Part shown: positions 1 to 10,177 of the stretch, one piece after another
How positions within the stretch are numbered: position 1 is the stretch's first letter
How the letters are laid out: every line of letters begins with the position of its first letter
Assembly: GCA_025800345.1 (NCBI GenBank)
Contig: JAOXSB010000163.1
Location: 1 to 54,833, forward strand
DNA length: 54,833 nt
Source of the DNA: Mangrovicoccus sp.
GTDB lineage: Bacteria; Pseudomonadota; Alphaproteobacteria; Rhodobacterales; Rhodobacteraceae
Direction: 5' to 3'
Notes under the pieces: generated by a model
Databases searched by the model: none
Seen by the model: only the letters and a program-made list of their open reading frames with translations
Told to the model about the DNA's origin: nothing
Translations under genes and position numbers: made by a program

Positions 1-659
1 CCTTTCTTTGCCGCCTTGCGCAATTCCGCCATTGCACTCTCTTGGGAGCGGGTTTCCTGAAACTGCTGGGCGATACTGGCATCCAGCCCAAGAAGGTATG
101 AAATCGCGACCTGCTGGTCCCAGTTCTGCTGCGGCCCAGACTGCTGAGTTGGTTGAACGAACCCACCACTTCCTTGTCGGCGTGCAAAGTAAGAAAAGAG
201 TGAACGGAATGTCGGACCGAACCGACTGATGGCATCCGGGTCTGTAGGAAGATCGAACAGCAATGCGCCAAGATCAGCTCGCCAGTTTATGTTCGACAGC
301 ACCAGGTCGCCAGACTTGTTGTCCAACTCGGGCTTGATCGGCCAATGCTCTGTCTCGCCAAGAAGCTTGATGCGCGCTGGTTTCATTCCAGAACGCGCTG
401 CAGAAATCGTATGTCCGCTAATGTCGGTCTGCATCTCGAATGTGTGCTGTTTCAGCTCATCGGAGCGAAAGATGCTATCGGGCTTAGCGTTACCGCCATA
501 TATGAAATGGACAAGCTCAACAAAACTGGTCTTCCCTGCCCCGTTTCGCGTTTGTCGATCTGTTGATTGTGCCGTCTTCTCAGCCAATAGGATATTGAGA
601 CCTGGCCCAAAATTGAGTGTCTTGAAACTGTCCAAATCACTTGTGAGATTGTGGATCAT
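1..659 (-). CDS. DUF2326-type ABC/SMC-like ATPase of an ABC-3C system (partial, 3' end beyond window)
   Basis: The reading frame begins at an ATG at 659 and runs off the left edge, so only about 219 N-terminal residues are visible. The start (MIHNLTSDLDSFKTLNFGPG) is followed by a P-loop reading RNGAGKTSFVEL at about residues 43-54. This fits the N-terminal half of an SMC/RecN-like ABC ATPase of the DUF2326 kind, whose coiled coil and signature/Walker B half would lie outside the window. Its ATG overlaps the stop of the upstream gene (ATGA), so the genes are translationally coupled. In ABC-3C conflict systems such an ATPase acts with a small middle component and a protein carrying an effector domain and a C-terminal domain, both of which lie immediately upstream. 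The P-loop is seen directly; the family comes from pattern recall and context. Confidence 0.75.
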   Translation of the reverse strand, partial: MIHNLTSDLDSFKTLNFGPGLNILLAEKTAQSTDRQTRNGAGKTSFVELVHFIYGGNAKPDSIFRSDELKQHTFEMQTDISGHTISAARSGMKPARIKLLGETEHWPIKPELDNKSGDLVLSNINWRADLGALLFDLPTDPDAISRFGPTFRSLFSYFARRQGSGGFVQPTQQSGPQQNWDQQVAISYLLGLDASIAQQFQETRSQESAMAELRKAAKK

Positions 660-901
660 AACACGCCCTTGCGAAGTAGGCCGTTTTCAAAACTCACCGC
701 TTTGGTAATAAACAAAAGATCTAGGGCGAGGATAAACCAATCATAGTTTATTGGAGCCCCACCCACCGCTTCACCGCGCTGCTTGCGCACCTCGTCCCAC
801 GCCCGTGAAACCGTCATGGGTTCCTTCATGCACGCAAGTATATCGGCGCCCACGGTGAGGAGCGCGCGTTCAGGGCGGATATGTTTGGTTGGTAGGATCA
901 T
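656..901 (-). CDS. ABC-3C middle component, MC6-like small protein
   Basis: This 81-residue soluble protein starts MILPTKHIRPERALLTVGAD and contains a central VSRAWDEVRKQR segment. I recognise this as the pattern of the short middle component (MC6 type) of ABC three-component systems. Its role in the family is to bridge the ATPase and the effector/CTD protein. It overlaps both neighbours by ATGA junctions (with the upstream gene at 898-901 and the downstream ATPase at 656-659), so stoichiometric co-translation is likely. There is no signal peptide or membrane segment. The family call rests on recalled motifs and on the perfect operon context. Confidence 0.7.
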   Translation of the reverse strand: MILPTKHIRPERALLTVGADILACMKEPMTVSRAWDEVRKQRGEAVGGAPINYDWFILALDLLFITKAVSFENGLLRKGVL

Positions 902-1809
902 GCGTCTGCCTCTTCCTCCACATAATCCTCAAAAATGTCGCAACGCTCGAAGAAATACGACATGACGGCCAAAACAGCGGCCTGATGCTGCGGCGTTCCG
1001 CCCATCCCGCCCGCGAAGTGTTGAAGCTCCATGAAAATATGTTCGGCGGTATGACCCTGCTGTTTCAAGTCCTGATACCGATCACGGAAGCCCTGAGCAA
1101 TCTCTTCGCCAAAATCCGGATTTGGAAACTGGTTGAAGAAGTCCTCGACCAGCCTCTCTCTACGACGCCCCTGACGGAGAAGTTCTGCAGCATCATCAGA
1201 AAGATCGTTTGCCTTCAGTTTTGACGCAGAAGGTGCCGCCAGGGGCGCGCTTTCGTCCGGATCAAGCCGCTGAATAACCATTACGACAGGTCGCAATGCC
1301 TCAAAATCGAGTTGCGCAAGTGTGCGTTGTGTTGGAGCCGGGCCGAACAAGTCTTCAAGTTGAGAAGGCGTCAAAGACATCGTGATTTCGAAAATCTCGG
1401 GATAGCTCATTTGGCCCAGCGATACGTTCGGGTTTGCCTTGCCAAGGTCTATCAACTGCTGAACCGCATCGGCAGGAAGGCCATCGTCGTCGTTGTGAAC
1501 AAAAGACCAACGCTCCATACGCGGGCCCCAATGGATGACTGCACCATTGAAATCTTCATCGACCTTCGCCTGAAGCTTATCGAGTTTTGTTGTCTTCGGC
1601 GCATAGCACTGGAAAACCGTTTTATCGCTCGCGCGATAACCATCGCATTTTAGGTCGCCTTTGTTTCCATATGGCCGCACCGCTTGGAAATCACCCGTGA
1701 AGGCATGCCCCATGATCCGCGAGAACAGATCCTCGAACGCCTTTCCTTGACTCTCAAGAAAAGCGATGCGGAACTTCAGTTGAAAAAAATGTCTTTGAAG
1801 CTCATCCAC
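898..1809 (-). CDS. ABC-3C effector: nuclease-like N-terminus plus C-terminal ABC-3C domain
   Basis: A 303-residue protein starting at a GTG that shares its G with the TAG stop of the upstream recombinase gene. The N-terminal ~110 residues (FEDLFSRIMGHAFTGDF, then YGNKGDLKCDGY and VFQCYAPK) have the E...GxxGD.kcDGy...QCYAPK layout of restriction-endonuclease-fold domains, with candidate catalytic acids and the lysine of the APK segment. The C-terminal ~120 residues (LLRQGRRRERLVEDFFNQFP ... ERCDIFEDY) match my recollection of ABC-3C C-terminal domains that dock to the ATPase complex. The likely role is DNA cleavage licensed by the ATPase during phage or plasmid attack; this is inference. The stop overlaps the MC6 start. 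Confidence 0.7.
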   Translation of the reverse strand: MDELQRHFFQLKFRIAFLESQGKAFEDLFSRIMGHAFTGDFQAVRPYGNKGDLKCDGYRASDKTVFQCYAPKTTKLDKLQAKVDEDFNGAVIHWGPRMERWSFVHNDDDGLPADAVQQLIDLGKANPNVSLGQMSYPEIFEITMSLTPSQLEDLFGPAPTQRTLAQLDFEALRPVVMVIQRLDPDESAPLAAPSASKLKANDLSDDAAELLRQGRRRERLVEDFFNQFPNPDFGEEIAQGFRDRYQDLKQQGHTAEHIFMELQHFAGGMGGTPQHQAAVLAVMSYFFERCDIFEDYVEEEADA

Positions 1810-2372
1810 TACTGGGTTCCTCCAATAGCGCGTTGAATTGTGCTTCGGTTCACCCCGAGTATTTCTGCCATGCCTGTTACGGTCTCTTGCTTTGCCGATA
1901 TTGCGGCCTTCGCGTGCTGGATCTGTGCAGGTGTCAGCGCCGGTGGACGGCCAAGACGCTTGCCGCGCTTTTTCGCGACTGCTAGGCCAGCTTTCGTACG
2001 TTCCTGGATCAAATCCCGCTCGAACTCAGCCAATGCCCCCATAATGTGGAATACCAGCCGACCGCCTGCTGTCGTTGTGTCTATCCCGTCCGTCAGGCTA
2101 CGGAATTCGATACCGCGATCACCGAACAACTTCAGAAGGTGGATCAAGTCAGCGATGGATCGTCCTACCCTGTCCAGCTTCCAGACAATCAGCAAGTCAC
2201 CCTTGCCAAGAAGATCCATCGCTTCGGAAAAACCGGTTCGGCTCTGAGCTGCTGTTGTTCCGCTTTTGGCCTGATCTGTTATGATGCGATCACATCCGGC
2301 TTCGGTCAGCGCCTCGACCTGTAAGTCTAGGTTCTGTTCTTCTGTAGATACTCGTGCGTAGCCGATTTTCAT
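1809..2372 (-). CDS. Serine recombinase, resolvase/invertase family (Tn3 resolvase-like)
   Basis: A 187-residue protein; the ATG at 2372 is preceded by AGGA at good spacing and gives the family-typical start MKIGYARVST, with catalytic Ser9. The catalytic domain continues through DRIITDQAKSG, LLIVWKLDRVGRS and GALAEFERDLIQERT, and a C-terminal helix-turn-helix (GMAEILGVNRSTIQRAI) is present. The length is normal for a small resolvase. The expected role is site-specific recombination between res sites, or resolution or inversion of element DNA. The gene is the first of the operon encoding the ABC-3C proteins and overlaps the next gene by one base. The upstream gap holds nested inverted repeats that could be its binding region. 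It could be a leftover of a Tn3-like element or a co-opted part of the defence operon. Confidence 0.88.
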   Translation of the reverse strand: MKIGYARVSTEEQNLDLQVEALTEAGCDRIITDQAKSGTTAAQSRTGFSEAMDLLGKGDLLIVWKLDRVGRSIADLIHLLKLFGDRGIEFRSLTDGIDTTTAGGRLVFHIMGALAEFERDLIQERTKAGLAVAKKRGKRLGRPPALTPAQIQHAKAAISAKQETVTGMAEILGVNRSTIQRAIGGTQ

Positions 2373-2687
2373 GGAATCCTTTTGCACGAGGTTTTTGCGG
2401 CAGTCCAGTACAATTGGAATCAAAGACTTAGCGGTAATGCGAAATGTGCCGCAAAAAGGGTCATTATTGCGGCACTGAAACGATAATTACCGTTCGACTA
2501 GAAAGCAGCAAAAGCCGAGAAAAGCCCATTTTTGACAAAAGCTGCGACCCTCGCGAATGACCGGTCTTCAGCAGACGGCCCAAAATGTGACAAAATCAAG
2601 TGAGTTTCACCAAGGGTTTTTGTCTCTGAGTTTTGTCAGTGCGTTTATGGCGTCAGCGTCATCAGGGTCGGGGGCCATTCAGATTGG
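2373..2687. repeat. Candidate res/operator region upstream of the resolvase gene
   Basis: This gene-free stretch has visible symmetry. A perfect inverted repeat GTGCCGCAA (2446-2454) / TTGCGGCAC (2467-2475) sits inside a second pair CGGTAAT (2432-2438) / ATTACCG (2486-2492). A further TTGCGGCA lies at 2395-2402, close to the resolvase start. Further left, TGACAAAA occurs at 2534-2541 and 2588-2595 and inverted at 2631-2638. Small resolvases normally bind a multi-subsite res region next to their own gene, so this is the obvious candidate, possibly doubling as operator for the operon. The spacing does not match a canonical Tn3 res layout by eye, so the call is tentative. Confidence 0.4.
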
Positions 2688-3506
2688 CTAACCAAGCCCC
2701 CAGATCATAGACTCGAAGTCAAGGCGATAAATTGATTTTAGCGGTTCCCTGACTTCAATTTCGATATCCTGACCAACGCCGTACTCAATTGTCAAATTTT
2801 TGGGTAAGATTGCCGGTCCGACAAGATAGTGCATCCAAAAATCCAATATCTGTTTGTCTGGAGTCATGATCATAGCCATAGGGACTACAAAGGCTTCGCC
2901 AGGTCCAAGGTCAGGTAGTGCAATGTCGCTGCGTATCGGACGCACATCGCCCACCTCTAGAAGGCATTCACCACCATCGTACTCATATAAGCAACCATCC
3001 TTTATGAGCTCATAGCCATAGTGAAACTGGAATATCTCCCGTGTAGTGCGGTCAAGTTCAAAGCGATCGACGGATAAATTGCCTGACTGCACCGGAACAT
3101 CACCGTGGTTCTTCACGACTAAGCCGAGGATGTAGCGCGTGTACGAGGACACGCAGCCACGCTCCGGGCAAATTTGCTGCGCGGTAAGGCGGGCATTCAC
3201 GCTCTCTAGGAGAGTCGCAGAGTAATCAGTTTCGTCCTGAACTGCTTCGGTCAACACTTCAGTCCGTAGGAATTTTAACCCGGCGAGAATCGCGAGGTCT
3301 TCCGAAGATTCCGCTTCTCCATCAACGATGGTGAGCGGCATCGCGATATAGGAAGCGACTATGGCAGGCGCGTCTTCTGGAGGCGCGCAGCACCAGGCAT
3401 AAATCTTTTCGCCTATACCGATCGAGCTGGCTGCCAAGCCGAGGACAAACGCCACCGCCGTCAAGAACCACCCTGGCTTGAACTTGCTTTCTGGGCCTTC
3501 TTCCAC
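2688..3506 (-). CDS. Unidentified membrane-anchored protein
   Basis: I do not recognise the family. The 272-residue product has one hydrophobic segment at about residues 14-32 (FLTAVAFVLGLAASSIGIG) after a short charged N-terminus, then a long, mostly beta-like, non-cytoplasmic-looking domain with several cysteines (CC, C..C, a CLYEYDGGECL loop). It therefore looks like a single-pass protein with a large periplasmic domain. The GTG start at 3506 has no strong ribosome binding site; a GAGG lies farther upstream, so the exact start is uncertain. It stands alone between the ABC-3C operon and the lanthipeptide locus, on the same strand as the nearest precursor gene but 244 bases away, so it need not belong to either. 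Confidence 0.55.
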   Translation of the reverse strand: MEEGPESKFKPGWFLTAVAFVLGLAASSIGIGEKIYAWCCAPPEDAPAIVASYIAMPLTIVDGEAESSEDLAILAGLKFLRTEVLTEAVQDETDYSATLLESVNARLTAQQICPERGCVSSYTRYILGLVVKNHGDVPVQSGNLSVDRFELDRTTREIFQFHYGYELIKDGCLYEYDGGECLLEVGDVRPIRSDIALPDLGPGEAFVVPMAMIMTPDKQILDFWMHYLVGPAILPKNLTIEYGVGQDIEIEVREPLKSIYRLDFESMIWGLG

Positions 3507-3750
3507 TTCGCGATCAGCCAGAACTAAGCCTCCCTCGCTCTGCCTAACCTACTGCAAATCATCCCAAACCTAAAAACGTTGATCGACGGTCATACCTCAT
3601 GGGTTTCTGTCCCCGGCGAAACCGACCACTTTTGGCCGCAAATGCTAACTGATGTCATTACCTGAAGAGCAAGTAGAGAACTTTCCCGCCGCTTGTTTGG
3701 TTAGCGAGGATCTATAGGTACATGAAAGCGAACCGCAGCTAGGCATCTGG

Positions 3751-3975
3751 CTATGCCAGAGTTATACCGGTCCATGCGCAAGTGTATGAACATGAACTCG
3801 CGAGTTGTATACCGTCAAGATTGATTTCACGGGCAACATCTTCAGCAAGCTCAGGCGATAGCCCTTGTGATTTGAGCGTATCAATAGGTTCATTCTTTAG
3901 CTTCGATCTAAAATCTGTATCTGCAAGCGCGAGCTTGATGACCTCTTCAGCAATTTTTTTCTGCATCATCTTCAA
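3751..3975 (-). CDS. Lanthipeptide precursor 1 (NHLP/Nif11-like leader)
   Basis: A 74-residue peptide with a charged helical leader carrying FRSKLKNEP (residues 22-30) and LSPELAEDVAREI, then a short C-terminal core with two cysteines (C62, C66) among Ser/Thr residues (S60, S61, S63, T65, T69, T72), ending TLA. The leader resembles NHLP/Nif11-type RiPP leaders, and its FR[S/T][K/R]LKNEP block is repeated in the second precursor nearby. Modification by the adjacent lanthionine synthetase is expected: dehydration of Ser/Thr, then thioether rings to C62 and C66. The start is a TTG at 3975 with GAGG about six bases upstream; the ATG at 3969 is the alternative. It lies 13 bases after the RibF-like gene, hence co-transcribed with it. 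Final ring pattern and cleavage site are unknown. Confidence 0.75.
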   Translation of the reverse strand: MKMMQKKIAEEVIKLALADTDFRSKLKNEPIDTLKSQGLSPELAEDVAREINLDGIQLASSCSYTCAWTGITLA

Positions 3976-3988
3976 CTACATCCTCGAC

Positions 3989-4717
3989 CTAAAATTCACC
4001 CGGTCCTTTTATCACAGATAACAGGCCATGGCCACTTGTAAGAGGCTCATCGAAGTCTGGCACTCCGCTCTTAACAGAAAACTTCGTTAATGCTCCATCC
4101 TTATGATATCTGCCAACATAATTCCCATCAGCCCATTCAAGGCTGCGGCTCACCTGCCAATCAAGGGTAGGATAGTAACCAGTAGCTTCGTGAAACCTAG
4201 AAATACTTCCGCGGCGCAAAGCTTCGAAGACTTCCGTTCGGTGATATCTTTCCTTCATTTTTGGCAGCACACAGACTTTACAGGATGAACCTTCGAACCT
4301 TTTCTTTAGTCCTGCCAAAGAACCCTCTTTACCTCGTCCAATCGTTTGGTTTTGGCGCAACCATAACTCCCGGACTGAACATACACTGTTCAGGAGTTCA
4401 AAAAACACACCTGGCGAAGCTTCCAGGTCAGCCGCTGTCATACGGCATAGTACAACATTTTGCCCCGAATGATGCCGGATGCGATCAATGAGTTGTTCTA
4501 GGCCCTCAACATATGGAAGGTCGCAATCACCGTTTGCTTGACGCAGCAGAACGAATGGAGACGGGTACAACAGACAAACCACTGGCTTGAAATTTGATTT
4601 TTTTTCAAAGTCTTGAAGCAGTTCTGTATGATGAGAAATCCATGGAAAGAAGCTTCCTATATACAATGAGCACGGTTCCGGTGTGCCCTCAAATTTTGGA
4701 ACAAGACAAACATCCAT
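3989..4717 (-). CDS. RibF-like nucleotidyltransferase with degenerate HxGH motif, lanthipeptide-associated
   Basis: A 242-residue protein that follows the layout of the FMN adenylyltransferase half of bifunctional RibF: an N-terminal LYIGSFFPWISHHTELL where RibF has GNFDGVHxGH, then a strand and YPSPFVLLR (RibF: F.PHP...L), ASPGVFFELLNSV (RibF: SPEEFV..L), ELWLRQNQTIGRGKEGSL (RibF: vVGeDFrFGrgr.G) and TEVFEALRRGSISRFHEATG (RibF: TRIReAL..GD...A...LG). The first His-Gly of the nucleotide-binding motif and the SST-R motif are not conserved, so adenylyltransferase activity is doubtful or altered. It is encoded divergently from precursor 2 and the synthetase and directly upstream of precursor 1, which ties it to the lanthipeptide. 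It could install or bind a nucleotide or flavin cofactor, or act as a leader-binding scaffold; the role is unknown. Confidence 0.6.
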   Translation of the reverse strand: MDVCLVPKFEGTPEPCSLYIGSFFPWISHHTELLQDFEKKSNFKPVVCLLYPSPFVLLRQANGDCDLPYVEGLEQLIDRIRHHSGQNVVLCRMTAADLEASPGVFFELLNSVCSVRELWLRQNQTIGRGKEGSLAGLKKRFEGSSCKVCVLPKMKERYHRTEVFEALRRGSISRFHEATGYYPTLDWQVSRSLEWADGNYVGRYHKDGALTKFSVKSGVPDFDEPLTSGHGLLSVIKGPGEF

Positions 4718-4785
4718 GATGTACTTTCGCTTGATATTATGGAAAACTATGGACTAACTTTAAGCAATAGACGAGGGAGATTTTT
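4718..4785. promoter_or_regulatory. Divergent promoter region of the lanthipeptide locus
   Basis: Only 68 bases separate the leftward RibF-like/precursor 1 pair from the rightward precursor 2/synthetase pair, so both promoters must overlap here or lie partly inside the genes. The stretch is AT-rich, includes TTGATA-like and TATGG elements, and ends in GAGGGAGA five bases before the ATG of precursor 2, a strong ribosome binding site suited to high precursor expression. No clear operator palindrome is visible. The promoter call rests on the divergent arrangement. Confidence 0.5.
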
Positions 4786-5022
4786 ATGTCTGATTTAGAA
4801 GAAGCACGTTCAAAGGCTAACGCCATCATCCTGAAAGCTCTAGGCGATGAAGATTTTCGAACACGTCTGAAGAATGAGCCAATGGCAACCATGAAGGACG
4901 AAGGCGTAGAGGAGAAGCTCGCAGAAGAGCTTGGCATGGAACTTAAGGTCGACGGCGAACCTATCATTACAGCATGTATCGCTTTATCATGCAGCTTCCT
5001 TAGCTCTGTCACACTGGCTTAG
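4786..5022 (+). CDS. Lanthipeptide precursor 2 (NHLP/Nif11-like leader)
   Basis: A 78-residue peptide with a long acidic helical leader containing FRTRLKNEP (residues 24-32), nearly identical to the block in precursor 1, followed by EEKLAEELGMELKVDGEP. The C-terminal core holds two cysteines (C64, C69) with T62, S68, S70, S73, S74 and T76, and ends in the same TLA as precursor 1. A strong Shine-Dalgarno (GAGGGAGA) precedes the ATG. The synthetase gene starts 20 bases downstream, the normal lanA-lanL order. The leader should be recognised by the synthetase and the core converted to a one- or two-ring lanthipeptide. No double-glycine cleavage site and no dedicated protease or exporter gene is seen nearby. 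Confidence 0.78.
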   Translation: MSDLEEARSKANAIILKALGDEDFRTRLKNEPMATMKDEGVEEKLAEELGMELKVDGEPIITACIALSCSFLSSVTLA

Positions 5023-5042
5023 GATCGCATCAGAAAGTCTGA

Positions 5043-7379
5043 ATGCTAAACTGTTCATTTGACGCACCTGATCTGTTCAAGGAAACGAGCATTTCAGGAA
5101 TATACAGATGTGTCGCCCCCTCGCTCATCCCGCCCGGAAACTTTCGGGCTTGGAAAATCCACATATCTTCACGAACTGATACTGCGTCCGCCACCTTGGA
5201 TACGGTTTGGCGATCTGCAGCTATGCTTCAGTATTCCTTCAAATATGTAGCAAATTCTGATGATTTGGCTTCTTTGAATGAAGGCAACTTCGGGCTATCC
5301 CAAGTAGGAAAGTTTGTGACGATCTACCCTTCCTCTTCAATTCATCTAGAAGAGATAGTCTCCGATCTAACGAGCCGTTTGCCATCAACACACTCTCCTA
5401 GGGTTCCATTTGATTATCAACTCGCGAGCCATACTAACGTTTTTCTAAGGTATGGTGCTTTCAACTACCTCCCAATTAGAGAGCCCATTGGAGCGATCGC
5501 CCCAGCTTGGGTGGACGAGCGTGGAGACGCCATTCCCGACAGCAGAACATCTGCTTGCCCCGACGATGCACTCCTACAACTGAAAAATCACGGGATAGAT
5601 GTTCTTGCGAAGTGTAACCCACCTTTGCTTCAGAAGCGGTATGTGGCGACTGACCTGCTCCACCATGGCCCTCGCGGGAGCATCTTTCTTGGTGTAGACA
5701 CGGAAAAACTCTCTCAGGTGATCATCAAATCAGCGCACAGGTTAGATCGCATCAGTGAGCGCGACGGAAGAAGTTCCTATGACCGCCTCAAACATGAATA
5801 CCGTGCCCTATCCAATGCCTTTGAGTTGGGTATCTCACCGCAACCATATCTTTGCGAGGAGCAGGACGATTCTGCATTCTTGGTGATGGAGTACTTGGAA
5901 GGCACATCACTGCAGTCCCATATCCAGAAACGCCTCCTCTCTTGCCAAGAACCAGACCTCCATTTTGCCCGTAGTACATTCGATAAGCTCGTGGAAATCA
6001 ATGAAGCTCTTAGAAAGATTGGCATTCATCATGGAGATCTAAGCCCTCGAAACATAATTCTGTCACCGCAAGGTATGAAAATTATCGACTTTGAGCATGT
6101 CGTTTTTTCTGACGATCTAGCTTCGGGCGTTTGGGCGAGCGGCACCCCAGGCTTCTCAATGAAGCCAAAATTCGTCACATCTCAAACTGAGCTAGATGAA
6201 AGATGTCGATATAGTTTGGAAAGCATATTCTACTTTCTGGCCACAGGTAAGGACGGGTTGGGGAGTTTCCGAAATGCAAGTGAGGCGATTAAATGGGTGA
6301 GAAACCTTAGTAAGTTACCTCAGAATGACACAGAGCGCGTATCTTTACTCACAAGCTCGAAAGGTATGGCAGTTACCGAAGCAACTCACCATTTTCGGTC
6401 TGATGGGACATCGCTTTATGATGGCTTGTCAGGAAAAATATTTGCTTATCAATATCTAAACTGCACCTCGCAAACTCATGAACCGACATCAAACGCAGTC
6501 AAACTTGTAAAAAAACTTCGAGAAACGCCTCTACACCCTGGATTCTACGTGGGTGGCTTAGGTGTGGCGCATATTCTGCGACATTTTCTTGGTTCGCCCG
6601 ATGAAGCAGAAGTAGTAGAAAAAGAGGCATTTAATATACCCAACGCATCGCCCGACTTTCTAAATGGAAGAGCGGGTCAACTACGATATTTTTGCACAAA
6701 GTACCTTGCGGCAAAGGATACCGAAGACCTACTCACAGCAAAGCAGCTCGCAGAACGTCTCTGTGAAGAATACTCACACAACGAGGCAGGGTGGAAGATA
6801 CCTCAAGGTTACGGCGACCTGTCCAACAAAACTCATGTTGGCTATGCTCATGGAGCGGCCGGCATTGTTGACTGCCTGATTGACTACTATCGCATTTCTA
6901 GATGCTCCAAGTGCCTTGAAATAATTCGACACTTTGAATCCTCGCTCGCATCAAGATTTGAGATTCGTTCGGAAATGTGGACTTGGCCGGAGGGAGGACG
7001 CGATGGCGGCGGAGCGAGTTGGTGCCATGGCGCCGTCGGTATCGGGAGATTTTATCTGGGCTATTCTTGTTTGGATCAAAATCGCGCAAGTCTTATTGCT
7101 GAAGCGATATCAAAGTACCTGTTCGAGAATGCGAGATGGCAAGGGGTTCATTATTGCCACGGCTTAGCGGGAACTATTGATTTTCTTGTAGATACCGCCA
7201 AAATTTTTCGGAGCAGCACTAACATCCGAAGAGCAGCTTCGCTTTCTAATGACGCCATGGCGTTGATGCGCAGCGCTGAACTCCCATCAGACTCATTGTT
7301 CACAGGTGAACTGGGTCTAGCCTTGGTAACCGCAAAGCAAAAATATGGGCTGAGCGCTGATTTACTGCGTATGAAATAA
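5043..7379 (+). CDS. Class IV-like lanthionine synthetase (lyase-kinase-cyclase, LanL/LanKC family)
   Basis: A 778-residue three-domain enzyme. Residues ~1-200 correspond to the phosphoSer/Thr lyase region. Residues ~200-460 form a Ser/Thr kinase domain with a VIIK lysine (K229), catalytic loop HGDLSPRN (D332, N337) and a DFE metal motif (D349). Residues ~490-778 form a LanC-like cyclase with YAHG (H603), WCHG (C661) and YCHG (C705, H706). The last two supply the Cys-Cys-His zinc ligands that class III enzymes lack, hence the class IV-like call. It should phosphorylate and eliminate precursor Ser/Thr, then catalyse Cys addition, in the cytoplasm. The C-terminus ends soon after the SLFTGELGLALV block, about where LanC domains end. 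It lies 20 bases after precursor 2. Base composition is clearly lower in GC than the chromosome to the right. Confidence 0.85.
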   Translation: MLNCSFDAPDLFKETSISGIYRCVAPSLIPPGNFRAWKIHISSRTDTASATLDTVWRSAAMLQYSFKYVANSDDLASLNEGNFGLSQVGKFVTIYPSSSIHLEEIVSDLTSRLPSTHSPRVPFDYQLASHTNVFLRYGAFNYLPIREPIGAIAPAWVDERGDAIPDSRTSACPDDALLQLKNHGIDVLAKCNPPLLQKRYVATDLLHHGPRGSIFLGVDTEKLSQVIIKSAHRLDRISERDGRSSYDRLKHEYRALSNAFELGISPQPYLCEEQDDSAFLVMEYLEGTSLQSHIQKRLLSCQEPDLHFARSTFDKLVEINEALRKIGIHHGDLSPRNIILSPQGMKIIDFEHVVFSDDLASGVWASGTPGFSMKPKFVTSQTELDERCRYSLESIFYFLATGKDGLGSFRNASEAIKWVRNLSKLPQNDTERVSLLTSSKGMAVTEATHHFRSDGTSLYDGLSGKIFAYQYLNCTSQTHEPTSNAVKLVKKLRETPLHPGFYVGGLGVAHILRHFLGSPDEAEVVEKEAFNIPNASPDFLNGRAGQLRYFCTKYLAAKDTEDLLTAKQLAERLCEEYSHNEAGWKIPQGYGDLSNKTHVGYAHGAAGIVDCLIDYYRISRCSKCLEIIRHFESSLASRFEIRSEMWTWPEGGRDGGGASWCHGAVGIGRFYLGYSCLDQNRASLIAEAISKYLFENARWQGVHYCHGLAGTIDFLVDTAKIFRSSTNIRRAASLSNDAMALMRSAELPSDSLFTGELGLALVTAKQKYGLSADLLRMK

Positions 7380-7393
7380 TTTTCGCCTGTACT

Positions 7394-7600
7394 CTAAAAT
7401 CCATGCGTCGCTCCCCGGTCGATCTCCCTATCCTTCTCGACCTCCTGGTCCTTCTCTTGATCGCTTTCGTCCTTAACCTCCAGCCTTTCGCGCGGATTGT
7501 TCAGCACAACCTTCAGCCGTTCATTCACGGGCGGCTTTGAGCCTACCATTCTGTCGAGCTTGATCGGCTTCCGAACCTGTGGCTTCAGATCATGTCCCAA
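7394..7600 (-). CDS. Small charged hypothetical protein or remnant
   Basis: I do not recognise this. A TTG at 7600 could start a 68-residue, strongly charged product (PPVNERLKVVLNNPRERLE followed by alternating D/E/K/R). No convincing ribosome binding site precedes the TTG. The frame is open for 44 codons further upstream, back to the TAG stop of the XRE regulator, with which it is in frame. It may therefore be a fragment of a once longer protein rather than an independent gene. It is convergent with the lanthionine synthetase, whose stop is 14 bases away. Confidence 0.3.
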   Translation of the reverse strand: MGHDLKPQVRKPIKLDRMVGSKPPVNERLKVVLNNPRERLEVKDESDQEKDQEVEKDREIDRGATHGF

Positions 7601-7732
7601 ACCACCGTTTGTGGCACCTACAGAAAACAGTTTGTTGATGCCGATTTTGCGAGAGCGGCCATTGGCGCAACCGCGGCGAGATGGTGCTTTGTCCGCGTTT
7701 TTCCAGTTCGTTCGGCCCGTAGCGAAGGTCGG

Positions 7733-8386
7733 CTAGTCGTTTTCGATATGCCAGCTGTTGGCAAGATCTGTCAGAGCGTAGTCGTCAGCCAAATCTTCGG
7801 CCACACGTTTAGTGACGTTGGAAATACTCTTTTCCGTGACTTTTGCGTTGACTGACCAAGAAGCTGCAGCCTCGGCTGCAACCCGCTGGATGTCGGCATC
7901 GTCAGCTGCAATATGCGAGTGCTCGGTCTGGCTGTCCTTCGAGAAGCGCTCTTTCAGGCTCAGGTACAGTTGAATAGCAAGAGCGGCATCCGACTTGCGT
8001 TGTTCGACCGGGGCGTTCTCGAAACTGCTTCCGAAAATCTCATGGAATTCTAGGTCGCCCTCTTTTGCGACCCTTTCTATCAGATCGCTTGGAATGCTGC
8101 GTTGCCCGGTCTCATAATTATACAATGCGCGTCGAGTAATGCCCATTGCCTCTGCAAACTCATTGCGAGTCATTCCTCGGAACTCGCGGCAAGTCTTCAG
8201 CCCTCGAGCAATACTCAAACTCCTTCTGCTGGTTTGAAGTTTTTGCTTGCGTAAAAAGCGTTCTCTTCGCTCGATGCCCTCTTTTGTTATTCTATTATCT
8301 TCTCTGATTCGGGCAGCACGATGCTGTGGACTGCGCTTGCGCTTCGCTTCTCTATTGAATTGTTCTAAAAATTGACTTCGGTTCAT
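7733..8386 (-). CDS. XRE-family transcriptional regulator
   Basis: A 217-residue protein with a basic N-terminal region (~1-60), a Cro/CI-type helix-turn-helix (LKTCREFRGMTRNEFAEAMGITRRALYNYETGQRSIP, about residues 64-100) and a C-terminal regulatory region of unknown fold. The ATG at 8386 is preceded by AAGGA at six-base spacing, so I prefer it to the upstream in-frame start. It is divergent from the excisionase-like and integrase genes, the usual arrangement for an element-encoded repressor that controls excision and its own synthesis across a shared ~140-base region. Confidence 0.75.
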   Translation of the reverse strand: MNRSQFLEQFNREAKRKRSPQHRAARIREDNRITKEGIERRERFLRKQKLQTSRRSLSIARGLKTCREFRGMTRNEFAEAMGITRRALYNYETGQRSIPSDLIERVAKEGDLEFHEIFGSSFENAPVEQRKSDAALAIQLYLSLKERFSKDSQTEHSHIAADDADIQRVAAEAAASWSVNAKVTEKSISNVTKRVAEDLADDYALTDLANSWHIEND

Positions 8387-8529
8387 GGGTGATCCTTGGA
8401 GCTTAATAAAGCGCTTTGGGAACATGCGTTCTCACTGAGATGCTAACATCAAAATCCGAAAATGAAAGCTAGATAGCCTACAAAATCACGCAATAACTTG
8501 CAGTTATCCGCAGTTGGGAGTGCAAGCTA

Positions 8530-8742
8530 GTGCAAGATTTTGAAGACGCGCTGACGCCGGAAGAATGGTGCAAAAAACTAAGCAAGACTGGTGCAACAAT
8601 CTCGGCACGGGCCCTGCGTACAAAAGCTAGAGAACATGGACAGTTCTACTCTCTAGGACGCGCCATGTTGCTTAGCGCGGCTCATATCGAAGCGTTGCTA
8701 AGAATTGATGCAGCTTCGAACCAGCGGACTGCGCAACAATGA
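8530..8742 (+). CDS. Excisionase-like small DNA-binding protein
   Basis: A 70-residue protein from a GTG start at 8530, with EEWCKKLSKTGATISARALRTKARE resembling the winged helix-turn-helix of AlpA/Xis-type directionality factors, followed by FYSLGRAMLLSAAHIEALL. GGGAG lies about nine bases before the start. It is transcribed towards the integrase and divergent from the XRE regulator, fitting a recombination directionality factor. The similarity is weak and the call rests mainly on size and position. Confidence 0.5.
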   Translation: MQDFEDALTPEEWCKKLSKTGATISARALRTKAREHGQFYSLGRAMLLSAAHIEALLRIDAASNQRTAQQ

Positions 8743-8825
8743 CGTCATTTTTGAAAAACGATGATTTTCCGGTGCTCAATGCATCCGATTGTTGGTCAAC
8801 TGTTAAAATGTGGATTTAATTACCT

Positions 8826-9017
8826 ATGCCGAGCCCTCGATCCCCTTCAATGCCCACAGAGCGCCAGATCAAAGAAGCCTACAAGGTTGCTCGTGAACTG
8901 TGTCCTGGTGTGCGCATAAAGGGCGTGGGGCCTGAGGGCGTAATCTTTGACTATCCTGATCGTGACGAGACAAGCCACGAATGGGAAGGCCAGCCCTTTT
9001 CAGGAGATGCCGCATGA
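8826..9017 (+). CDS. Small hypothetical protein coupled to the integrase
   Basis: I do not recognise this 63-residue protein. A helical segment (PTERQIKEAYKVARELCPGV) is followed by a beta-rich part (RIKGVGPEGVIFDYPDRDE). Its stop overlaps the integrase ATG (ATGA at 9014-9017), and similar small genes commonly sit directly upstream of tyrosine integrases in alphaproteobacterial islands. Either ATG 8826 or ATG 8850 could be the start. Its role, perhaps modulating integrase expression, is unproven. Confidence 0.5.
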   Translation: MPSPRSPSMPTERQIKEAYKVARELCPGVRIKGVGPEGVIFDYPDRDETSHEWEGQPFSGDAA

Positions 9018-10018
9018 AAAAACTACCTTATCTACGTTCTAAACTGCGCCGTGGACGTTGGTTTCACACATATCGTCGCGGCGATGTTGAGCGGTCTCTA
9101 GGTGTCCATGGACTGCACCCGAAAGATCCCAAAGTCTTGGCCGCATGGGCAGCAGAACACGCGCGTTGGCAGGAAATGCCTCCGGATACCGATACCCCTG
9201 AGGCAGGAACATTTGCTTGGGCGCTGGATCTCTACATCTCCGGCAATCAGAAATGGGCAAAGTATGCAGAAGGAACACGCGCGGCCCGATCTGCGATCTT
9301 TGCGCGCTACCGCAAGACTCAGGGCGCGCGCCCGGTCAAGACGATCACGGGCGAAGTTGTAGAACGCGCCCTGTATGCAAAGGGCGGGCATGGTGCTGTA
9401 AACGAGCACAAAGCGCTCAAGCCGGTCTTTGAACACCTCCGTCGCTTGGGTTTCATCCGCAAAAATCCATTGGTCGGGATCGAGTTAGATAAACCCAAGA
9501 TTAAAGGATTTCCTGTCGCCGATGCAGAAGACATTGAAGCCTTCCAAAAGCGCTGGCCAGTGGGCACTCGTGAACGCCTGATTTTTGATTTGGGTTTATT
9601 TACTGGCGCGGCTCGCACTGATCTAGCCAAACTAGGCCGGAAGAACATCAAGGGCGACCTGTTAGTCTATGAGCGCCAAAAAAGTGGGATAATCGCGCGT
9701 GTGCCGCTTACGGCTGAACTCCGAGCGGCCATCAATCGCACTCCAGATATTGCTCCCGCATTTATCCTTACCGGTGCCGGTAAGCCTTTCAAGGCCACAA
9801 GTCTGGGTAATGAATTCGGCGGCGCAGCTCGCGAAGCTGGGATAGCTTCTCGCCTTCATGGCCTGCGCAAAGCTTTCTGCATTTATTGGGCTGAAAACGA
9901 CGCGACCACTCACCAGATCGCGGCGATGGCTGGGCATATGAGCCTTTCTGAGGTAGAGCGTTATACGCGCGCTGCTGATCGTGAACGAATGGTCAAGTTG
10001 CTAGTAGGGGTCGCCTAG
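9014..10018 (+). CDS. Tyrosine recombinase (integrase) of the element
   Basis: A 334-residue phage-type integrase. An N-terminal arm-binding-like basic region and a SAM-like core-binding domain (~65-155) precede the catalytic domain with R201 (TGAARTDL), K223 (QKSG), H282-x-x-R285 (HGLR), H308 (GHMS) and nucleophile Y317 (ERYTRA): the complete RKHRHY set. The ATG at 9014 has CAGGAGA upstream; the in-frame start at 8981 lies inside the preceding gene. The gene points at, and ends 83 bases from, the 3' end of tRNA-Arg(CCT), the classic integrase/attachment-site layout. It should catalyse insertion and, with the excisionase-like protein, excision of the island. Confidence 0.92.
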   Translation: MKKLPYLRSKLRRGRWFHTYRRGDVERSLGVHGLHPKDPKVLAAWAAEHARWQEMPPDTDTPEAGTFAWALDLYISGNQKWAKYAEGTRAARSAIFARYRKTQGARPVKTITGEVVERALYAKGGHGAVNEHKALKPVFEHLRRLGFIRKNPLVGIELDKPKIKGFPVADAEDIEAFQKRWPVGTRERLIFDLGLFTGAARTDLAKLGRKNIKGDLLVYERQKSGIIARVPLTAELRAAINRTPDIAPAFILTGAGKPFKATSLGNEFGGAAREAGIASRLHGLRKAFCIYWAENDATTHQIAAMAGHMSLSEVERYTRAADRERMVKLLVGVA

Positions 10019-10100: not shown

Positions 10101-10177
10101 TGGCGACCCCGGCAGGATTTGAACCTGCAACCTATCCCTTAGGAGGGGATTGCTCTATCCAATTGAGCCACGGGGCC
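10101..10177 (-). tRNA. tRNA-Arg (anticodon CCT); attachment site of the element
   Basis: The minus strand reads acceptor GGCCCCG, D arm GCTC/GAGC, anticodon stem ATCCC/GGGAT around loop CTCCTAA (anticodon CCT), T stem GCAGG/CCTGC around TTCAAAT, acceptor CGGGGTC, discriminator G and an encoded CCA. All stems pair, with one G-U in the acceptor. It decodes AGG. The 3' end faces the integrase, so the recombination core should lie in the 3' half and remain intact after integration. No second copy of the tRNA 3' segment is visible at lower coordinates, so the other junction lies outside the window. Confidence 0.96.

Follow-up and report, generated by a model that had tools for sequence, protein, structure and literature searches.

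The FMN-adenylyltransferase (FMNAT) module of RibF has been examined by mutation in the FAD synthetase of C. ammoniagenes. Excerpts of PMC3509593 report that replacement of H28 (H28A, H28D), H31 or N125 lowers kcat from 17 per min to below 0.1. In the same excerpts, ATP binding without Mg is very weak or reduced in H28A and H28D and weak or very weak among the H28 and H31 variants, whereas these inactive variants bind FMN at near wild-type strength. Passages of PMC7279473 state that aromatic residues are needed at F62 and F128 and that Ala or Lys at F62, Y106 or F128 removes FMNAT activity. On the side of lanthipeptide synthesis, the kinase domain of LanL-type enzymes is described as phosphorylating Ser/Thr in the part of PMC2843593 considered here, and a portion of PMC10604976 describes a DF(G/E) motif in ThurKC, an enzyme of class III. 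Among the results returned by our literature search, no lanthipeptide pathway with a RibF-type fold was found, in agreement with the earlier note on this DNA, which knew of none; the literature searched also yielded no pseudoenzyme of RibF or FAD synthetase.

Here we describe a lanthipeptide cassette of Mangrovicoccus sp. in which a gene for a distant RibF relative, designated P0001, is located between two precursor genes. The window analysed is the whole stretch of 54,833 nucleotides of contig JAOXSB010000163.1. The features of the locus are collected in Table 1.

Table 1. Features of the cassette and of the surrounding island
Feature	Position	Strand	Basis or remark
ABC-3C CTD10 protein	898-2423	(-)	PADLOC PDC-M68A match
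272-aa protein	2688-3506	(-)	hydrophobic N-terminal stretch
Precursor 1, NHLP-type leader, core ...LASSCSYTCAWTGITLA	3751..3975	(-)	TTG at 3975, first ATG at 3969
P0001, RibF/FMNAT-like protein, 242 aa	3989..4717	(-)	domain and model evidence
P0001, nucleotidyltransferase domain	residues about 10-180		
P0001, short beta-rich tail	residues 183-242		
Divergent intergenic region of P0001 and precursor 2, 68 bases	4718..4785	(.)	geometry of starts
Precursor 2, NHLP-type leader, core ...IITACIALSCSFLSSVTLA	4786..5022	(+)	domain and alignment evidence
P0004, class IV-like lanthionine synthetase, 778 aa	5043..7379	(+)	3' of precursor 2
Tyrosine integrase	8981..10018	(+)	Pfam and PHROGs
tRNA-Arg(cct), probable integration site	10101..10177	(-)	tRNA call

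The cassette and its genomic setting

The cassette consists of two precursors, one synthetase and one extra gene, P0001. The precursors are 36% identical to each other, and no further copy was found in the genome at E 0.1. Their NHLP-type matches were weak and confined to the leader; the best leader model, NF038399, gave 24.0 and 21.2 bits, under its cut-off of 40. The start of precursor 1 is likelier to be at 3969, because GAGG precedes that ATG.

In P0004, Pfam reported RamC_N (lyase) at residues 37-170, Pkinase at 208-421 and LANC_like at 455-769. The kinase part contains HGDLSPRN and DFE, and the LanC part contains WCHG at 660 and CHGLAG at 705, of which WCHG and CHG presumably provide the Cys and Cys-His zinc ligands of the LanC site. 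The best NCBIfam model was LanL (NF038150) with 331.6 bits, under the equivalog cut-off of 650. When 390 genomes of the order were searched, the synthetase was found in one, which was its own; its best relatives were 24-31% identical, and a search of IMG/VR with the synthetase alignment gave zero confirmed relatives.

The cassette probably lies on an integrated element that makes up the left part of the window, because the integrase adjoins tRNA-Arg(cct), ending 82 bases from it. To the left of this site, over positions 1-10000, the GC content drops from about 0.60 to 0.45-0.53; that of the cassette is 0.45-0.49 and that of the chromosome to the right is 0.58-0.62. A second copy of the attachment site was sought and not found. 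The contig begins inside the island and does not reach its far end, which lies further to the left. The ABC-3C CTD10 protein is encoded beside a serine resolvase and is possibly defence cargo of the island. The 272-aa protein matched no Pfam, PHROG or PADLOC family.

P0001 is encoded by an intact frame of 242 codons with an ATG start and zero internal stops. Since this frame has remained intact despite the divergence of the protein, the gene is likely to be used as a protein. The precursor-1 ORF follows on the same strand, 3' of the P0001 stop, and the gap is 13 bases to its opening TTG and 19 bases to its first ATG. On the other side, P0001 and precursor 2 are divergent with 68 bases between their starts, and no promoter-like match was found within this region. 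The spacing of 13 bases and the divergent arrangement had both been given in the earlier note, and both held. P0001 would probably be made from the message of precursor 1.

Relationship of P0001 to RibF

When P0001 was compared with 24,736 Pfam families, FAD_syn (PF06574) was the sole family reported (E 0.0085), with residues 15-157 aligned on positions 7-150 of the 158-position profile. The score was 16.4 bits, under the curated cut-off of 27. No family was matched in NCBIfam, PHROGs or PADLOC. Subsequently, P0001 was compared with 27 RibFs using hhalign, and one collinear alignment over 190 columns was obtained (score 29.6, P 0.0017). None of 500 shuffles reached this score, the best giving 27.5 over 13 columns; one of 166 unrelated ORFs scored higher (33.5), yet over 50 columns. 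Furthermore, BLASTP against the RibF of an IMG/VR contig (L130) showed 26% identity over 167 aa with 37.0 bits and an E value of 7e-8 that applies to that single pair. In a set of 68 ORFs for RibF or standalone FMNAT proteins, this RibF was again the best match (E 1e-5). With an HMM of 23 alphaproteobacterial RibFs, P0001 obtained 4.1 bits, which is inside the range of 1000 shuffles (top 5.8), and BLASTP gave no meaningful match to the RibF of the same genome.

It is fairly clear from these sequence comparisons that P0001 is distantly related to the FMNAT half of RibF, as the earlier note had proposed; the FAD_syn match, hhalign and BLASTP all point to this family, and they leave the closest branch less clear than the family. 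No Flavokinase match was reported by Pfam in P0001 or in its last 61 residues when scanned separately, and this tail gave no Pfam match of any kind.

Predicted structure

Prediction of P0001 from the single sequence gave a pLDDT of 37.4 and no usable model. A usable model was built with four RibF fragments as alignment rows. In this model, residues 11-180 were mostly at pLDDT 70-88, and the tail (183-242) was under 50. The best PDB match by Foldseek was the C. ammoniagenes FAD synthetase (E 3.7e-7), and comparison with that structure (2x0k) gave Z 17.6 and an rmsd of 3.0 over 181 residues, a match which the RibF rows partly dictated. S. pneumoniae SP_1110 (3op1) followed with Z 17.0 and the T. 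maritima FAD synthetase with Z 15.8 to 12.8. CoaD, NMNAT and pantothenate synthetase belong to the same superfamily as the FMNAT fold; CoaD, NMNAT and other families were at Z about 11, below the FAD synthetases. The guided model indicates that residues about 10-180 have the Rossmann-like FMNAT fold, and the comparison with RibF suggested in the earlier note thus came out in favour of that fold, in a model steered by RibF rows.

Active-site residues and possible retained chemistry

In motif 1, GNFDGVHxGH is replaced by GSFFPWISHH, so that HxGH reads ISHH and the second His alone of the two remains. SSTxxR is replaced by HRTEVF, in which Thr alone is retained. Among 58 RibF ORFs sampled from the top-scoring search loci together with the genome's own RibF, HxGH was present in all 58 and the SSTxxR pattern in 57. 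In C. ammoniagenes numbering, the changed positions are H28 to I, G30 to H, H57 to S, F62 to L, Y106 to F, F126 to Q, F128 to I, S164 to R and R168 to F. The kept positions are H31, N125 (the catalytic Asn), R161 and T165; also retained are both Pro residues of the PHP segment, which reads YPSP, and aromatic character at the Y106 position. The description of the motifs as broken in the earlier note applies to the first His of HxGH and to most of SSTxxR, but not to the second His or the catalytic Asn. We rejected the reading that P0001 is simply broken and hence meaningless, because the equivalents of H31 and N125 are retained.

FAD synthesis by P0001 is unlikely, because in the C. ammoniagenes enzyme a change of the first His alone abolishes it, according to the excerpts of PMC3509593. 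A separate RibF, with a FAD_syn score over the cut-off, is encoded in the same genome, so housekeeping does not require P0001.

Standalone FMNAT genes encoding 'FAD synthetase family' proteins of 254-300 aa were found on Paracoccus, Thioclava, Terrarubrum and Variovorax plasmids (L136-L140). The five proteins have no riboflavin-kinase Pfam match and keep HxGH. Their genes adjoin HutD, isochorismatase, flavin reductase or 4-HPA 3-hydroxylase genes. The existence of such genes, some of them beside flavin-dependent enzymes, would be in line with P0001 being an ordinary FAD synthase supplying a flavoenzyme. However, the five proteins score 132-141 bits with FAD_syn, compared with 16.4 for P0001, and none of the cassette genes was recognised as encoding a flavoenzyme. 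We consider this identity highly improbable and rejected it on the lost motifs and the low FAD_syn score.

In the FMNAT superfamily, the nucleotide is mostly transferred to an acceptor that bears a phosphate, while class III/IV synthetases form phospho-Ser/Thr peptide intermediates. These two properties together mean that P0001 could nucleotidylate a phosphorylated precursor, as a tailoring enzyme that keeps nucleotidyl transfer and has a new acceptor. The second His and the Asn equivalent to N125 are retained, and the neighbouring P0004 has a LanL-type kinase domain, of the kind described as phosphorylating Ser/Thr in excerpts of PMC2843593. Furthermore, GSFFPWISHH fits the NMNAT-type consensus GxFxPx[H/T]xxH, quoted in the portion of PMC12599879 considered here, at all but the [H/T] position, where Ile stands; given this near-fit, residual nucleotide chemistry may persist. 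On the other hand, H28 is essential in the C. ammoniagenes enzyme (PMC3509593, in excerpt), and SSTxxR and the flavin-pocket aromatics are mostly lost and lost, respectively, so that binding of ATP and of the acceptor may be gone. We regard such a transferase as unlikely. A narrower proposal, that P0001 captures the phospho-Ser/Thr intermediates made by the synthetase and either transfers a nucleotide to them, giving a nucleotidylated lanthipeptide, or holds them and thereby steers ring formation, appears very unlikely.

The retained FMN binding of the dead His variants (PMC3509593, in excerpt) is also compatible with a ligand sensor or self-protection factor, in which P0001 would still bind flavin or nucleotide and set expression or immunity. 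Among the proteins scanned with Pfam, none beside the synthetase was recognised as another immunity protein or as a transporter. However, the F62, F126 and F128 positions are L, Q and I in P0001, and Pfam reported no DNA-binding or other additional domain. A role of this kind seems quite unlikely.

Search for relatives and recurrence

No relative of P0001 was found by exact peptide patterns in genome contigs and IMG/VR, or in phages at E 1. In plasmids, tblastn gave no match at E 0.01 and two weak matches (E 3 and 7) up to E 10. In overlapping genome samples, P0001 was found in 1 of 195 and 1 of 394 genomes, itself each time, and in 2 of 398, the second being a frame with stops. At E 0.05, 13 of 385 genomes matched, namely its own and 12 marginal matches. 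Nine of these 12 were inspected (all but L012, L015 and L019); one was a true RibF in register, and the others were spurious frames or different proteins, among them RecR and an AMP ligase. When 20 genomes with synthetase relatives were searched, one matched, again with a frame containing stops.

We also scanned in six frames 84 loci around synthetase relatives (80 from the relative search and four plasmid loci), many of which match the LanC part only. Neither a P0001-like ORF (best E 2.5) nor a RibF-like ORF (best E 3.1) was detected. Recurrence of the gene beside lanthionine synthetases elsewhere, which the earlier note had put forward as a check, was thus not observed, in sets where the synthetase itself has no close relative. 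The note had named such an absence as refuting its proposal, and it counts against the proposal weakly, because a search of this kind has low power when the cassette is so rare. Related systems apparently work without a P0001-like gene. Because the synthetase relatives are distant (24-31%), this result does not tell a new partner and a passenger apart.

Twenty-four loci with longer synthetase matches were picked by hand, and their neighbours were read. In Haematobacter, Massilia, Legionella and MAGs (L004/L025, L030, L031, L033, L035, L059 and L063), class III/IV-like synthetases come after precursor-like ORFs that share the leader motif FFHxLxFxPE, with a RibF-like neighbour in none; the Legionella locus (L031) has two precursor-like ORFs in tandem. 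A Salipiger plasmid (L005:5035-7407) encodes a synthetase-like protein whose 528 aa leave no room for a LanC domain beyond the lyase and kinase parts. Ahead of it are two short ORFs that resemble each other and have Thr/Cys-rich ends, and a methyltransferase comes next; this is possibly a dehydration-only RiPP locus. In Halomonas cerina (L024:11020-12252), a flavoprotein-like frame with GGGQAGY near its start is found two genes past a class III/IV-like synthetase.

Since P0001 recurs neither beside other synthetases nor anywhere searched, it could be a passenger, that is, unrelated island cargo or a decaying gene lying by chance between the precursors. The loss of its catalytic motifs would agree with this, as would an island that carries other accessory genes (integrase, resolvase and ABC-3C-type protein) at GC 0.45 compared with about 0.60. 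Against it, the frame is intact, the modelled domain is complete, and a slot between paralogous precursors, with a gap of 13-19 bases, is an unlikely site for a passenger. We therefore hold a passenger to be a serious but doubtful alternative.

A candidate accessory of the lanthipeptide cassette

The explanation that we favour, still tentatively and at somewhat less than even chances, is that P0001, as a standalone FMNAT-type domain, has lost FAD synthesis and serves as an accessory of the cassette directed at the peptide or the synthetase. In this view, the class IV-like lanthipeptide cassette of the genomic island would have taken up a RibF N-terminal domain. Its FAD-forming activity would have been lost, as the C. 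ammoniagenes mutants suggest, and it would most likely bind a precursor peptide or the synthetase. The homology, the precursor-flanked position, the dispensability for housekeeping and the intact frame count for this explanation. The lack of any relative in the sets searched, the RibF guidance behind the good model and the 84 loci with no comparable gene count against it. No peptide-binding feature was identified in P0001, including its low-confidence tail.

If P0001 acts on peptides, a housekeeping fold that makes a cofactor has been turned into a partner of a peptide pathway, of a kind absent from the lanthipeptide literature as represented in our search results, and a new step of modification or control would be indicated. 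If it is a passenger, P0001 is a warning against reading function from one unrepeated neighbourhood.

Comparison with known systems

P0004 has RamC_N, kinase and LanC in the same order as class IV LanL and class III LanKC, and it shares DFE with ThurKC as that enzyme is described in the portion of PMC10604976 cited above. It differs from class IV LanL as a distant branch, with a score below the NF038150 cut-off. P0001 resembles the standalone FMNATs in length class and in layout, a short tail coming after the FMNAT domain; MAFFT sets WADGNYVGRY of P0001 opposite their PPAGxYxVRG. In those proteins, however, the motifs are intact and the neighbours are not lanthipeptide genes, whereas the motifs of P0001 are lost; P0001 may be derived from a gene of this type. 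With the FMNAT module of RibF (2x0k), P0001 shares the fold, as far as the guided model indicates, together with the motif register, the second His, the catalytic Asn and the Thr of SSTxxR. It differs from RibF (PF06574) in the first His, most of SSTxxR, the pocket aromatics and the riboflavin-kinase module, none of which it has.
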